Origin: Nymphaea colorata
Taxonomy: Eukaryota; Streptophyta; Magnoliopsida; Nymphaeales; Nymphaeaceae
Reading direction: 5' to 3'
DNA length: 64,000 nucleotides
Assembly: GCF_008831285.2 (NCBI RefSeq)
Contig: NC_045151.1
Span: 8,633,682-8,697,681 of the forward strand
The notes below the pieces were generated by a model. That model did not search any database and was not told the DNA's origin. It saw only the letters and a program-made list of their open reading frames with translations. Both the position numbers and the translations under genes were made by a program. Every line of letters starts with the position of its first letter. Within the stretch, counting starts at the first letter, position 1. Positions 3,487-25,689 of the stretch are shown piece after piece.

Positions 3487-5380
3487 TATGTAGTACATGG
3501 AGGTTCTGTATACTTCACTTATGATAATAACACTAAGTTGCATTATGAATCAAATGACTTATAGATGTTGGCACAAGTCCTCATATAGATTTGTTTCGAC
3601 ACAATTGCATATTTATTTTTACTGGACCATCTTCAACCCATGGCTGGAGATTGTCATACTTAGAGATATCTAACAATTCCTTTAGTGAAGTTCATAGGTA
3701 GCTCTTGACTGACCGATGGCTTTTAGATGAACTTCCTCATTTTTTCTAGGAATTGAGTCGAGTATGGGATTTTTTGGATGTCTTGTTGAGTCTATGTTGT
3801 TTTTGTTTGGCTCTACATGATCCCTTAAAACTATGACTCTTACATATTTTGGTTTGTCAAGAATTTTCATTACTCAACTTATGATTTTGTTCTAATGTTT
3901 AAATATGTAGTTCCATTTTGTTGCAAAAAAAAAAAAGAGACAGCTTGGGTCCTAACAAGCTCATATCACAATATTCAAAAAAATATGCTAGTAAGTGCAT
4001 AATACAAACATCATAGAATATCCAATGCCACTTTCTCGTACCCCAGTTATAATAAACACATCTCGAAGAAGTCAACTCAAAAGCATAACATGGTTGCATG
4101 TGATTCTCACATCAGATCATCATACATCAGTAGGTGTAATCATAGAGAAAGGTGTTTGGACATGTGTGCAATGTTACTAGTGATCATTATGAATCATACA
4201 TGCTATTTGGCACATACTAGGATCATTTAACGACTCGTAGGCTGTGGAAATAGGAAAACTCAATCTCCCCCAACATCAAAACGAATCAACACAAAGCCTC
4301 CCGATGGCGTGCCTAAGGACTATACTGCATACATCAGCGTGATCACTGCTTGCATAAAATTCTCCATTCACCTGTATCTACTAGCTTGCGGGTAAGGGCA
4401 CATAGGCCAAAATGTACACCTAAAACGTGGCAGCATGTAAGAAAAAAAACACAATCATATTTCAGGTGCACACCTATAAGCAAAAAGGGTCAAGCCTGTG
4501 ATTACTAAGTCGTAGCCAACCCAAGTTGGCCATAGCCGGGCCATGGTAGACCAATTTTTACGCTAGTTAGTCAGGGCAAACCATTGGCTACTACCAATTC
4601 CAACCTGGTAAAAGAAATACATCAGGGTTCTTTAGACCAAATCATTGTGTAGGGCGTGACATTGAGCTCCATTACATGTCAAATTGGCCTTAGAAGGAAC
4701 CCTAAGGAAAATTAAGGGCTTGGCACTTCATAAAATTGCCCAAATTGAGTCATTTCTCTCAAAATTAAATATGCAAATGCATAGTGCATGATAAATAGGA
4801 ATCAATTGTAAAATTTAGTAGGAAAACTACGCACTAAATTGATCCTAGAGGGCTTCTACAAAAAAATAAGATTTTGTGGTTTCGTAAAAGCGCTCAAATC
4901 GTGCTTTTTTTCTCCAAATTAAATATGTCAATGCATAAGTGCAAAAAATAGGGGCCAATCCTAGAATTTGGTGTGAAACCATGCATACTATGAACCCAAT
5001 TTAATCAAAATGCAAATTTCAACCATAAAACCTTTGTGAAGGCGATACCTACATTTTACCTTTTTTGTTTTGTTCTAGACGCCACCAACTTCACTAGCTG
5101 CGGTAACAGCTTCTCTTTCTTCCTCCTCTTCTTCTTCAATTTTTTGCTTTATTTTCCCTCTTTTCTTCTCTCTCTCTCCCTCTCGATATTCAACATGAGG
5201 AAGGGATGGAGGTCGAGTTTGCTCGACCTTTCCCTTTAAACTCCTCTTTAAAAAACACAAAATTTTTAATAAATTTTCACTTAAACTCAAAATAACTAAT
5301 AATGTCATTAAGGGTTAATTATTTGATTAATTAAAGTTCATCCTAATTAGTTAAGGTTAAAGTTCATTAAGGTTTTCTTT
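3487..5380. other. Intergenic, no gene recognised
   Basis: A/T-rich sequence without a convincing gene. Two stretches near 4730-4830 and 4890-4970 are diverged direct repeats (ctc-aaattaaatatgcaaatgcata...). A polypyrimidine tract lies at about 5110-5190. Confidence 0.4.
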
Positions 5381-13377: not shown

Positions 13378-15939
13378 TCAAGGACTTGGGATCAGAACTT
13401 TTGATCGATACAGAGCTCTCTTCTTCCAGTAAGAGTTGTTCTCGATCGACAGGACAACCTTTCCAGGTTCAGTCACCCTGAATGAGTTGCGAACTGGTTC
13501 CTCCTGAGACGAAATTTTCTTAGATTTCTGAATTATAATTGTGTATGATCCTTCATCGGTAGGAACGAACTCCTCCTTGTAGTTTACTTCCCATCCCAAT
13601 ACAGTTATATCCCAAATTATAGTGTCTCCAACCTGTTAGACGGAAATAAAAGATATACAAACCGTTACATCCGAACTATAGTTTCATCGGCCTGGTAACT
13701 GCAAAAGGTAATACCAACACCCACAGCTTTGCAGTCAAGTTTTCCATAAAAGTTAAAAAGCCAATGTGTGTATAAGTAGACTGAATCATCTGAATCACGT
13801 CTAATTTGATTCACAGGCTTATTAAGCTGGAAAGGCAAGCCCATCGAAAGATAGTTGGCAGAAAGGCGTCTTTCCTTGAGCCACCCATATCCTTAATGGT
13901 TCCTTTATGAGTTGAATGAGACCCAAAAGAACATCTAAGTTTCACTCAGTTGAGGACCAATCTGAGTTCGACCGGTGCATTCAATATTAACACTAAAGCC
14001 TGAGAGTTTGACTAATTTGAGGCCCAGGAAGAACCCACTCGTTTTTACTTTTTGTTTCAGATTTCTTATTCGTGTTTTTCCTTTTTCCTCCATCACAGGC
14101 CTAGAACTCAACAGCAAAGCTTGTCAAACAAAAAGCGTACCTTTGGCGCCCGAATTTCCACATTTTCAGTGGATCCGGCTTTGATGACAATGTCTGATAC
14201 TACATCTTCTCCTACAGAGAAGACTTCATCTTTTTCGCGTTTTAGGCCGCCATACTGGATTGGTATGTTTTCTGCTGGAATGTACCTGTCAAGAAAAGAT
14301 TGTTCACGATGCCTGCTGCTGCACAGTTAAGCAAAGGAAATTTGTAATGCAAAGTGTACACCTCACCTAAGTAGAGTCTCAGTAACCTTGGCTGGCCGAG
14401 CAAAAACGAGTTTGCTTTTGGTTCTCTGTGTCAAGAACGGCGACAGCTTAAAAGCATAGTACCAAAAAGGAACGTTGATGAAGATCTGTAACCACAACCA
14501 TGGAATGTAGGAGATATCAGAGTAAAGAAGAATAACATGAATAGAAGTAGAATTAGGTACAACTCAATGAATAATTTCAGAGAAAGAACGAAAAACTGAT
14601 AAAAAAATGAGTTGCATTTCCAAGGAGAAGCCTGGATTCTGAAGCACCAAAAGAGAGGGAGAAGGAAAGAAATCCAAGTGGCAAATGAAAAGATACCAAC
14701 AAAAGGAAGTTTAGATTCTCCAAGAAAAAAGCACATGAAAATGATAAAGAAAGTCACTAGAGTTTCACCGACAGAAACTACTGATCGTCTGCATGAAATT
14801 ACAAGAAAGAAAGCAGAGATGCTTACATTTCTGGAGACAAACTCTGGATAATTGTCTTGAAGCAAATTCACAGCCTTACTGATAGCATTCCTCATTTCCT
14901 TCCTCGACGGTCCTGGGGCATTCTTCAGGTCAATGATCTGAAGTATGGAAGAGATACCACCTGGTTTGAAATCCAGTTGCTTTATTCCCTTCTCCATCAC
15001 TTGCAACCTCCACTTGAAAAATTGCTCGCATTTCTCCTCCGACCCAAACACCTTTTGATACAGATCCTTATCCTCAAAGACACCATACACATTGTAACAG
15101 ACAGGGTGGCCTTCCCTGTCCACACCATTCATGTAGGCAGCTCCTTCAAGGCCAGACTGCAATTCCTCCTCTGTAAGCGAATCGATCTGTGAATTTTTCC
15201 TCCATCTGATCGTTTTCTTCAGCATCTCAAGAGCCTCATTTACCTTGAAATCTCTGGCCCTAAGGAACTTCAACAGCACGACGTTAGTGGTATCCAGATT
15301 CTTGCTGGGTAAAAGAGGCACACCCCATAAACAGATGTCCTCGTCTACCATTTGGGGGTTATGGTTTTCATCTTTCTTCTCGTTGTCAGCCACTGCTTTT
15401 CCCTCTTTTGCTTCTCCGGATGCTGCATCTCGCTCCTTTGCCTCTCGGGGAGTTGCCACTCCCTCTTTTTCTTCTTGGGGAGCGACCTCTCCCTCTTTCG
15501 CTTCTTGAGGAGTTGCCTCTCTCTTTTCTGCTTCTCCAATAGCTACTATCTCGGCCTCCGACGCTTTTGCTTCTTGAGGTGCCTCCGACTCTTCCTGCAA
15601 GGGTTCCACGATGAGCTCGTTCCTGTGAATTGCTTGCTCCACCATGGATTTGAGCTCATTGAGTGCGTTTCTCTCAGTCTCTGACAAATCCGAAAGAAAG
15701 TTGCTCTCTTCCTTGAATGAAGGAGCGGATAGTTTCTTTGTTTCATCGATGCTCTGTCTCCCGTCTGCGTTCCCTTCCACAGGCTTCTCGTCCGCATGAT
15801 CACCAGCCGCGATGGGCTTTTTTTCGGGCGATTCGACCTTCTGCTCAGAAACCATAGCAGGTTCGACCTCCTTTTGAGCGACGACGGCGGCTTCTTCCGC
15901 CTTGTTCTCAACCGGTTTGACGTCTTCAGCAGCTGTCAT
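13378..15939 (-). CDS. Patellin-like protein (SEC14 + GOLD domains), 543 aa, four exons
   Basis: Exons on the minus strand: 15939-14827, 14485-14367, 14285-14141, 13632-13378. All junctions are GT-AG and the phases join (1632 nt including stop). The start is the first ATG of the frame (A at -3). Residues about 1-215 are acidic and E/K/A-rich with imperfect EAKEG repeats; a motif SFKEESNFLSDLSETE precedes WGVPLLPSK, which marks the CRAL-TRIO N-terminal part. The SEC14 lipid-binding domain follows (FLRARDFKVNEALEMLKKTI, YNVYGVFEDKDLY, LQIIDLKNAPGPSRKE, LLQDNYPEFVSRN|IFINVP), then a C-terminal GOLD domain (VLGWEVNYKEEFVPTDEGSY, RNSFRV, KVVLSIENNS). Patellins bind phosphoinositides and act at the cell plate and plasma membrane. 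The order and linker look closest to the PATL4/PATL6 type, from memory of the family. One oddity: exon 2 reads WYYAFKLSPFLTQR, about two residues shorter than usual between the YAF and SPF elements. Confidence 0.95.
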
Positions 15940-16290
15940 CTTGAGCCCTTGGTGTATGCGCGTGTCCTTCCCTTGCGCCTGTCCGAGCTCTTTCTGCAAG
16001 AAATTCCTCAGAGAAAGAGAAAGAACTAGAAGGGATCCTGAAATATCTGATTGCAGAGAGCGGCAAAATAAGAGAAGCTTCAGGTTCTCTGGCTCTCTCT
16101 CTCTCCCCTCCTTGATTTCCTCTGCCTATCTTGCCTCCCTGCCAGAAGAGGTCCTCTATATCTAATTCTGCAATCAGGAGCTTTCTCCCTCCCAGGGACT
16201 CTCTCTCTCTCGCCCCCTCCCTGTTCATCTCCGCCTATATTGGCTCCATGCCATGGCTTCTTTGTTTTCCGAAGAAGTAGCCGTTGAACA
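15940..16290 (-). promoter_or_regulatory. Patellin 5' UTR / proximal promoter region
   Basis: On the minus strand this is purine-rich, with GAGA-type runs at 16085-16110 and 16197-16215 (seen as ctctctctct on the plus strand), as is common in plant 5' leaders. A TATA-like gatatagagg (complement of 16151-16160) and a ccaatatagg (complement of about 16231-16240) lie 200-300 bp before the ATG. I cannot tell which is used or where transcription starts. There is no in-frame ATG upstream of the chosen start; the frame reaches further only through non-ATG codons. Confidence 0.45.
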
Positions 16291-24085: not shown

Positions 24086-24093
24086 CTAAACAA

Positions 24094-25678
24094 TAGGGCT
24101 GGGCGTCGGGCCGGGCCGCCGCCGGGCTGGCCCGGCCTGGCCCAGCCCGGTCGGGCCCGGGTCCGGGTTCGGGCTGGGAAAAACCTGGCCCGGGCCCGAT
24201 AGACCGGCCCGGGTCAGCCTTGGCCCGGCCCGATATTAAAAATCTGTCGTTTTCCAGCGAAGAACAGGCAAGGTGTTCCAACCATTTCCGGTGACGTTCC
24301 AACCATTTTCGGCAACTGCTCCGGCAGAATCCAGTGATCATTGGTTCAGACAACATCGCCTGCCTCCCACGACTCCCCTAGAGCAAACCCAAAGCGATTC
24401 GAGCCGGAAATGACCACGATCGAAGCGTTTGAAGAAGCTCTTGTCGACTGAAGAGCGTTTTCCCCGATGGACTGTTCTTCGTTCTGCCATCGCCATCTCC
24501 GGTGGCCATTTGCTGCCAAAAAGCTCAGACGACACCTCCGGTGAGTGGCGATCCTAACGAGCCCAAGTCCATCCCCGGAGGTGCACCCTACCAGCCGGAA
24601 TTGCAAGATTTCCGGCCACCCCTCTTTTCAGCCACGGACCTCTACCGCAGTTGCTTCTCCACCGGCGTTCAATCGCCACGAAATTTCTGAGGAGTCATCG
24701 CCGGATGCCTGCACTTCCAGTGGACTGGAGCTCGACCGCTGGGGTGGTCAAAGTCGGCCACAATCACAAGATTTCCAGCCGCCTTCGCTGCTGTTGCCTG
24801 TTTTGGGCGTGAAGAGTGTGAAGACGAAGTGGATTTCCGCGTCCACCGGGCCGGGCCCGATACCCGAATGACGGGCTGGGCCGGGCTCGGGCCCGATGGG
24901 CCGACCCGGGCTTGGGTTTACCGGGCCCGATGCCCAGGCCTAGGCCCAACCCGACCCAATTATTAACAGGCCGGGCCGGGCTTTCTCTGGCCGGGCCACA
25001 CCCATTCCATCTCTCCCCCTGACTTTCTAGCTTTACCCTGCAGCCGTGAAGGGCCTTCGAGCAAGCGGGTGCCCCTTTCTGTGGATCGTGTGCGAGCATG
25101 ACTAGCTAGTGAAGGAGGATTTCAGTGGCAAGGACCTGGTGGTGCCCTGGTGTGGGCAGATGAATGTCCTCTCTCATCCCTCCATTGGTGGCTTCTTCAC
25201 CCACTGGGGCTGGAACAGTGGAACTCCACCACCCAGGGCATATCTGCCAACGTGCTCTTCCTTACTTTCCCCATTGCGGTAGACCAAAGTTGCAACAACA
25301 AGATGATATGAAGATGGTGGGCAGGGAGAAAATAACGGCGATGGTGAGGAAGGTGATGGATTTGGAAATGAAGAACAACAAGGAAATGAGGAGGAGAGGT
25401 AGGGAGTTCAAAGGCAGCACGAAATAGTCGTGAAAGAAGAACAACGAAAAACCCTAACGTAAGTTTATTTTTGAAAAAAAAAAAAATTATTGTCGGGCTT
25501 CCCGGGTCCCTGACGATCGCAGTCACGGGTCCGAGCCCGACACGTTAGTTATCGGGCCGAGCTGGGCCGGGCCCAATAATGTAAGCCCGATAAGCAAATT
25601 TTCAAAGCCCGGGCCCGGGCCTTGAGTCGGGCCGGATACCTGGTACCCTGCTGTGGCCCGGCCCAGTGTCCAGGCTCA
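24094..25678. mobile_element. Non-autonomous hAT element carrying a captured UGT fragment (Pack-hAT)
   Basis: Perfect 8-bp direct repeats ctaaacaa (24086-24093 and 25679-25686) flank a G+C-rich 1585-bp unit. Its ends are imperfect inverted repeats: tagggctgggcgtcgggcc at the left, and the complement of the right end reads tgagcctggacactgggcc; both run into gggccgggcc. TSD length and terminal sequence fit hAT. A second, better-matching inverted terminus (complement taggcctgggcatcgggcc) ends at 24942, so the unit may be a nested or rearranged pair. GGGCC-type words recur at 24850-25010 and 25490-25670 as subterminal repeats. No transposase is encoded. The interior holds the glycosyltransferase fragment listed separately and a G+C-rich stretch (24250-24840) of unknown origin. 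Confidence 0.8.
25060..25427 (+). pseudogene. Captured UDP-glycosyltransferase fragment (UGT87-like, PSPG box)
   Basis: The stretch reads SGCPFLWIVCEHD, an in-frame stop, then [20 protein letters not shown] and [11 protein letters not shown]. This is the start of the plant secondary-product glycosyltransferase (PSPG) signature, with W in place of the usual C in THCGWNS. At about 25217 an extra agtggaac beside the normal tggaac shifts the frame. The reading then continues one frame over as [17 protein letters not shown], the second half of the PSPG box. After a short deletion a C-terminal piece follows (ITAMVRKVMDLEMKNNKEMR...), which resembles the tail of UGT87-type enzymes. A stop, a frameshift and a deletion make it non-functional. 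The intact parent gene is elsewhere in the genome. Confidence 0.8.
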
Positions 25679-25689
25679 CTAAACAAGAC

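Follow-up and report, generated by a model that had tools for sequence, protein, structure and literature searches.

An apparent composite of two non-autonomous hAT units, one carrying a captured UGT fragment, in Nymphaea colorata

Borders and ends of the composite

The window, the whole 64,000-bp stretch analysed here (C14:8,633,682-8,697,681; genome searched, 407.8 Mb), holds at 24094-25678 a segment enclosed by a perfect 8-bp duplication, CTAAACAA, whose two copies agree at 8/8 positions in direct comparison, as a preliminary description of this DNA had reported. Identical 8-mers this far apart are seen at 8 of 62,399 window positions, the CTAAACAA pair counted. No transposase appears among the matches listed for 24086-25686 in the genome searches, in agreement with the same description. 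From its sequence the segment reads as two non-autonomous hAT units placed end to end, not as one element with one capture, and its features are the following:

24086..24093, no strand: target-site duplication (TSD) CTAAACAA, left copy (sequence comparison)
24094..24115, + strand: 5' terminal inverted repeat of the composite (sequence comparison)
24094..24942, + strand: putative left unit, a complete-looking non-autonomous hAT element (genome matches, self-comparison)
24296..24814, no strand: left-unit interior (five other left-family loci; weaker matches at a few further places)
24921..24942, - strand: 3' terminal repeat belonging to the left unit, internal in the composite (19/22 to the 5' end)
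24943..25678, + strand: putative right unit, a 5'-truncated member of a separate UGT-carrying hAT family (genome matches, alignment)
25052..25409, + strand: captured piece of a UGT exon 2, including most of the PSPG box (alignment, Pfam, distances)
25103..25105, + strand: in-frame TAG stop of the UGT fragment (L007, L008 and L013 have it too)
25211..25218, + strand: 8-bp insertion (shared with L007 and L017)
25311..25312, + strand, with a few bases' uncertainty: junction of a 58-bp deletion (alignment to gene 1)
25454..25678, + strand: 3' shell of the right unit (76% identity with 4761-4974 of the 4,976-bp L053)
25679..25686, no strand: TSD CTAAACAA, right copy (sequence comparison)

Elsewhere in the window, 14431-15999 on the - strand holds a 522-aa open frame, which by eye we take to resemble a SEC14/patellin-like protein.

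The outer ends of the composite are GC-rich, as first described, and as inverted repeats they are identical at 15/22 positions; the close mutual match claimed for them gives way to a better one, at 19/22, between the 5' end and the internal site 24921-24942, inverted (self-comparison; query 836-857). The composite's 5' terminal 22 bases match L019 of the left family at 21/22 and L009, L006 and L053 at 20/22 each, and its 3' end matches L053 at 19/22. Because the scores to the left family, the right family (L006) and L053 are so similar, the 22 terminal bases alone cannot name the family that supplied them, and the 5' end is assigned to the left family from the longer left-unit match and from the bases just inside the terminal repeat, GCCGCCGG, which resemble L019. 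Two hallmarks of non-autonomous hAT elements are present: an 8-bp TSD, free of mismatches in the window element and in L006, L009 and L011, and short terminal inverted repeats (TIRs) in common with a transposase-encoding element, as seen in the ends of L053 and the shell match. Searches for paralogous copies of the flanks (0.5 kb each) returned, besides the locus itself, one weak partial match on the left (203-421 of 508) and seven on the right (within 110-330 of 512), all of which stop short of the TSD.

The left unit and the join

The whole-stretch genome search gave 347 candidates, of which 40 were scored and 50 matches listed, so that counts are lower bounds. Of the matches listed, the query itself alone covers both halves; the others cluster on the left (query positions 5 to ~840) or on the right (~845 to 1601). 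The largest overhang among the matches listed is that of L014, which crosses the join by 36 bases leftward (822-1449) in GC-rich sequence, and a weak match on C5 crosses it by 13 bases rightward (788-870). The units meet at the motif GCCCAGGCC, and an ATGCCC-AGGCC motif at the join is common to the left 3' end and the interior of the right family. The two-unit reading follows from the coverage of one half or the other by the remaining listed copies, from the inner inverted repeat at the join, and from the single TSD round the pair with none round the left unit (CTAAACAA versus GGCCCAAC). Two units thus share one TSD and the right unit is without its 5' end, the arrangement by which Pack-TYPE fusions are recognized, with an internal end deleted or mutated. 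The fused pair is present in at least one copy, namely that in the window, among the matches listed.

The left unit is bounded by inverted ends of its own, and its interior recurs at five or more other loci, the family copies being L005, L009, L019, L020 and L021. It is exemplified by L009, a sister of 1021 bp with the TIRs TAGGCCTGGGCGTC/TAGGCCTGGGCATC and the perfect TSD CTCATCCC, which finishes like the left unit in CCCGATGCCCAGGCCTA. Twelve candidate sources of the left interior were scored, and no hAT ends were noticed in L047-L051 when read by eye; Pfam at E 0.1 gave no match for eight pieces (two from L047-L051, three from the left unit and three from shell class B, introduced below). 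Two side observations concern sisters of this unit. By eye, the L019 copy runs at reverse-complement ~1680-2300 (C13) into Copia-type retrotransposon integrase-like sequence, and a 3' hAT end of L019 was looked for and not found. The 5' terminal sequence of L009 recurs along G000:C279:6640-46412 at steps of ~9.5-10.8 kb, with one place doubled, as if the L009-type element on C279 were part of a long tandem array.

According to the preliminary description, the whole 1.6 kb was one hAT element that had itself captured the UGT fragment; on that account it would have taken up another segment as well. The one TSD round the whole and the partly inverted outer ends (15/22) agree with that account, which we nevertheless regard as very improbable: no other copy among the matches listed spans both halves, the halves belong to separate families with their own termini and TSDs, and the 5' end pairs better with the internal site. 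The claim also lacks support on the capture, which was made in the family of the right unit and is older than the insertion in the window, the left half being of another family with another interior. Nested insertion, in which a left-family element jumped into a right-family element that later lost the rest of its 5' end, is also unlikely. Such elements do occur within or beside each other, as with the 392-bp element in L013 described below; here the eight bases directly after the left unit are GGCCCAAC, no repeat of CTAAACAA, so a simple insertion of the left unit does not explain the site. The left unit lacks a TSD of its own, no right-unit sequence lies upstream of it, and the later deletion would have to have stopped exactly next to CTAAACAA.

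The UGT-carrying family, its relatives and its source gene

Sibling copies, which the preliminary description had proposed to look for, were recovered by genome search: the alignment comprises 13 UGT-bearing copies of a family of about 0.75-0.87 kb, among them the window copy, and several of the 13 are flanked by 8-bp duplications specific to them. Complete sisters begin with TAGGGCTGGGCATCGGGCC and finish with GGTGCCCAGGCTTA, or nearly so. Perfect TSDs enclose L006 (826 bp; ATTTCAAC) and L011 (751 bp; ACCTTGTT), one mismatch is found in the TSDs of L012, L014 and L017 and two in those of L008 and L010, and no trustworthy TSD was found in L007, L013, L015, L016 or L018 among the 13 copies. Compared with L011, L006, L012 and L053, the right unit lacks roughly 80-160 bp of 5' terminus and starts in GC-rich interior. 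Within or adjoining the 3' part of the UGT-carrying copy L013 lies, at 1628-2019, a 392-bp GC-ended element with the perfect TSD AAGAAAAT.

Relatives of this family encode a transposase. The open reading frames of L045, which is cut by a contig end, contain zf-BED, hAT RNase-H-like and hAT dimerisation domains (Pfam), and the second of them has at least 107 genomic matches, several with open frames. This second frame is matched at 100% over 393 aa by the L053 locus and at 98% by the L052 locus. L053 measures 4,976 bp, with the perfect TSD ATTTAACC and the TIRs TAAGGCTGGGCATC/TAAGCCTGGGCACC, and L052 measures 5,009 bp, with a TSD bearing one mismatch. Similarity between the UGT family and L053 covers about 1-195 and 4761-4976 of the latter, with about 67-85% identity in the longer pieces, an identity low enough that L053 is to be seen as a relative of the mother element and not as the mother itself.

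A genome search with the 5' shell (96 candidates, 40 scored) returned at least 41 matches. TSDs at 20 fetched shell loci were perfect in eight and had one mismatch in three, with no clear call in the other nine; L027, L029, L033 and L035, whose TSDs are near-identical, may be duplicates of one insertion. The shell also frames other interiors, in several classes besides UGT, and one of these, class B (L029 and others), recurs at further shell-like loci. Other gene captures in the shell were considered and rejected for L032, L040 and L041, whose interiors match L053, and for L028, whose interior matches L046; by these matches the four interiors look like remains of transposase elements. Separately, the shell copy L036 bears at element ~280-1093 what by eye is an apparent LTR-retrotransposon-like insertion.

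The captured piece itself is identifiable in the window copy, in which the UGT fragment (stop as X) scores UDPGT in Pfam (E 1.6e-5). The PSPG-box and UGT peptides quoted in the preliminary description are present in the sequence, and the UGT similarity does not extend past the element borders. The family label UGT87 is kept here as an assumption, Pfam assigning UDPGT alone. The nearest source is gene 1, presumably UGT87-like, with exon 2 at C5:26,896,760-26,897,620; it forms with gene 2 a tandem pair of UGT genes on C5, with open exons and second exons 7.9 kb apart (exon limits of both genes set by eye). K2P distances of the copies are 0.113-0.174 to gene 1 and 0.159-0.217 to gene 2, gene 1 being nearer in 13/13, and copies differ from each other by a mean of 0.130 (range 0.087-0.196). 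A 14th copy, L023, is heavily deleted and was excluded from the distances and the tree.

Borders and lesions of the fragment are largely common property. In 13/13 copies the UGT similarity starts at a GGCCT(C)CGAGCAAGC-like sequence and ends near GAGTTC, and in 13/13 a 58-bp deletion relative to gene 1 is present, its junction reading ATGATATGA or ATGATATAA in 12/13, with L010 deviating. The stop, the 8-bp insertion and the deletion noted in the preliminary description all exist; as lesions of the window copy they do not stand, since sisters have them too (4/13, 3/13 and 13/13 copies, respectively, the window copy counted) and they are thus mostly inherited. The same borders and the same 58-bp deletion in 13/13 copies indicate that the UGT piece was captured once, ahead of amplification. 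The maximum-likelihood tree splits the genes from the copies with support of 100/99 and shows the copies as a star without resolved branching, a shape that likewise points to capture first and spread later. Host-gene coding DNA (the UGT fragment, by comparison with gene 1) therefore lies inside superfamily termini as an internal capture, with termini conserved across the family, as in Pack-hAT elements. The ~40 bp ahead of the UGT start resemble the L055-L057 interior in five of six copies, beating the best of 100 shuffles each, with no such likeness in the sixth, L018; with moderate confidence, this stretch appears to be old element interior.

Retention of the captured piece for a function, as a small-RNA regulator of its parent or a short protein, would be most surprising. 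Its 13 copies and their C/G-centred decay are compatible with methylated, siRNA-targeted DNA, and raw change from the majority base (taken as ancestor, which biases the rates somewhat) is highest at third codon positions (0.058, 0.053 and 0.081 for positions 1, 2 and 3). Against it, this excess largely disappears within base contexts: by codon position, change is 0.179, 0.172 and 0.182 at CpG and 0.072, 0.082 and 0.070 at CHH, less even at CHG (0.089, 0.135 and 0.165), and 0.006-0.021 at A/T sites. Without columns holding any CpG, third positions change at 0.128 versus 0.073 and 0.075. Because conditioning on base context mostly removes the excess, with CHG least even, it is read as base composition, and coding constraint was set aside as its explanation. 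The pattern fits a captured piece with no clear coding constraint, in neutral decay chiefly at C/G as in methylated DNA. Retained function also sits poorly with the 0.113-0.174 (K2P) separating the copies from gene 1 and with the 12 UGT-family copies among the matches listed (a set without L017), each of which has at least one internal stop.

Origin of the composite and comparison with known systems

Taken together, we put at roughly 0.82 the probability that the 3' part of a UGT-family hAT element was fused to a hAT element of a second family within one TSD, the family having moved in trans and its captured piece being in decay. The ~0.75-0.87-kb family consists of segments akin to the first ~195 and last ~216 bp of transposase-bearing hAT elements of ~5.0 kb, and the transposase of such ~5-kb elements would have moved it in trans. 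The composite itself could have arisen from two elements lying as neighbours, the right unit losing its 5' end, or by post-excision repair that switched template at the common GC-rich motif; the fused pair would then have acted as one element. The composite most likely has no product and is at most a methylated relic. The preliminary view of a non-autonomous hAT with a captured UGT87-like fragment is thereby upheld in substance, by the TSD, the ends, the TSDs of the sisters, the transposase-bearing relatives and the source gene.

Whether the pair moved as a unit is judged from its TSD, the window copy being the sole composite among the matches listed (at least one copy). The same TSD would result from end replacement in situ, in which a right-family element already resided at CTAAACAA and gap repair copied a left-family element over its 5' part. 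This is a variant within the fusion reading, with odds that overlap it, and we consider it a serious minority possibility: it accounts for the TSD and for the undiagnostic 5' terminal bases, and it places the join in a motif common to the left 3' end (ATGCCCAGGCC) and the right-family interior (ATGCCCGAGGCC, ATACCCAAGGCC), a motif so short and GC-rich that it is weak evidence for this route. Here it is indistinguishable from fusion followed by re-mobilisation. More tentatively, the composite may have moved as one with its 5' end region taken from one hAT family and its 3' end region from another, by a transposase that tolerates mixed ends. If so, end exchange between families would be a route for captured gene pieces to change carrier.

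The fusion reading has precedents. Pack-hAT elements of maize and rice, as reported among Pack-TYPE elements (PMC8903248), are non-autonomous, have 8-bp TSDs and captured coding DNA, and occur in several copies per cluster. The window element and its UGT-carrying family resemble them in being non-autonomous and in their 8-bp TSDs, captured coding DNA and multicopy state; unlike them as reported there, the source gene, transposase-bearing relatives and sisters are all found in one genome. The same report describes 'AB' fusions of two adjoining elements for Pack-Mariner, states similar acquisition for CACTA and hAT, and proposes that neighbouring elements fuse and then move as one (PMC8903248). 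In contrast to the fusions reported there, two families are joined here, in at least one copy among the matches listed. In maize, Ds-l4-483 is described as a compound Ds whose second unit is truncated (PMC3260210), and the window composite likewise has a complete element with a truncated one behind it, the latter closing with a terminal repeat and one copy of the TSD. By that description the maize case has the same element twice, the first flanked by a TSD and separated from the second by about 5.5 kb of other DNA, whereas the window units differ and abut directly. Host gene fragments are also carried by maize Ds2-22 and Ds-l4-354 (PMC3260210) and by the grapevine hAT Hatvine-6 (PMC2528002), as one is by the window hAT; Ds2-22 and Ds-l4-354 are described as including introns (PMC3260210), whereas the window family took part of one exon and multiplied after capture.

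A search by title, a weak check with partly loose terms, found no publication on a hAT element carrying a UGT fragment. With hAT gene capture and the fusion of neighbours already in print, the window case is a further example of a known phenomenon, and the gain is one well-resolved example. Its interest lies in possibly mixed ends and in a near-complete chain in one genome, running from a source gene and transposase-bearing relatives through shells that enclose either other interiors or the gene piece to an apparent two-family fusion. Because this chain is largely visible in one genome, the locus offers a tidy case for dating capture against spread and for hAT end exchange.
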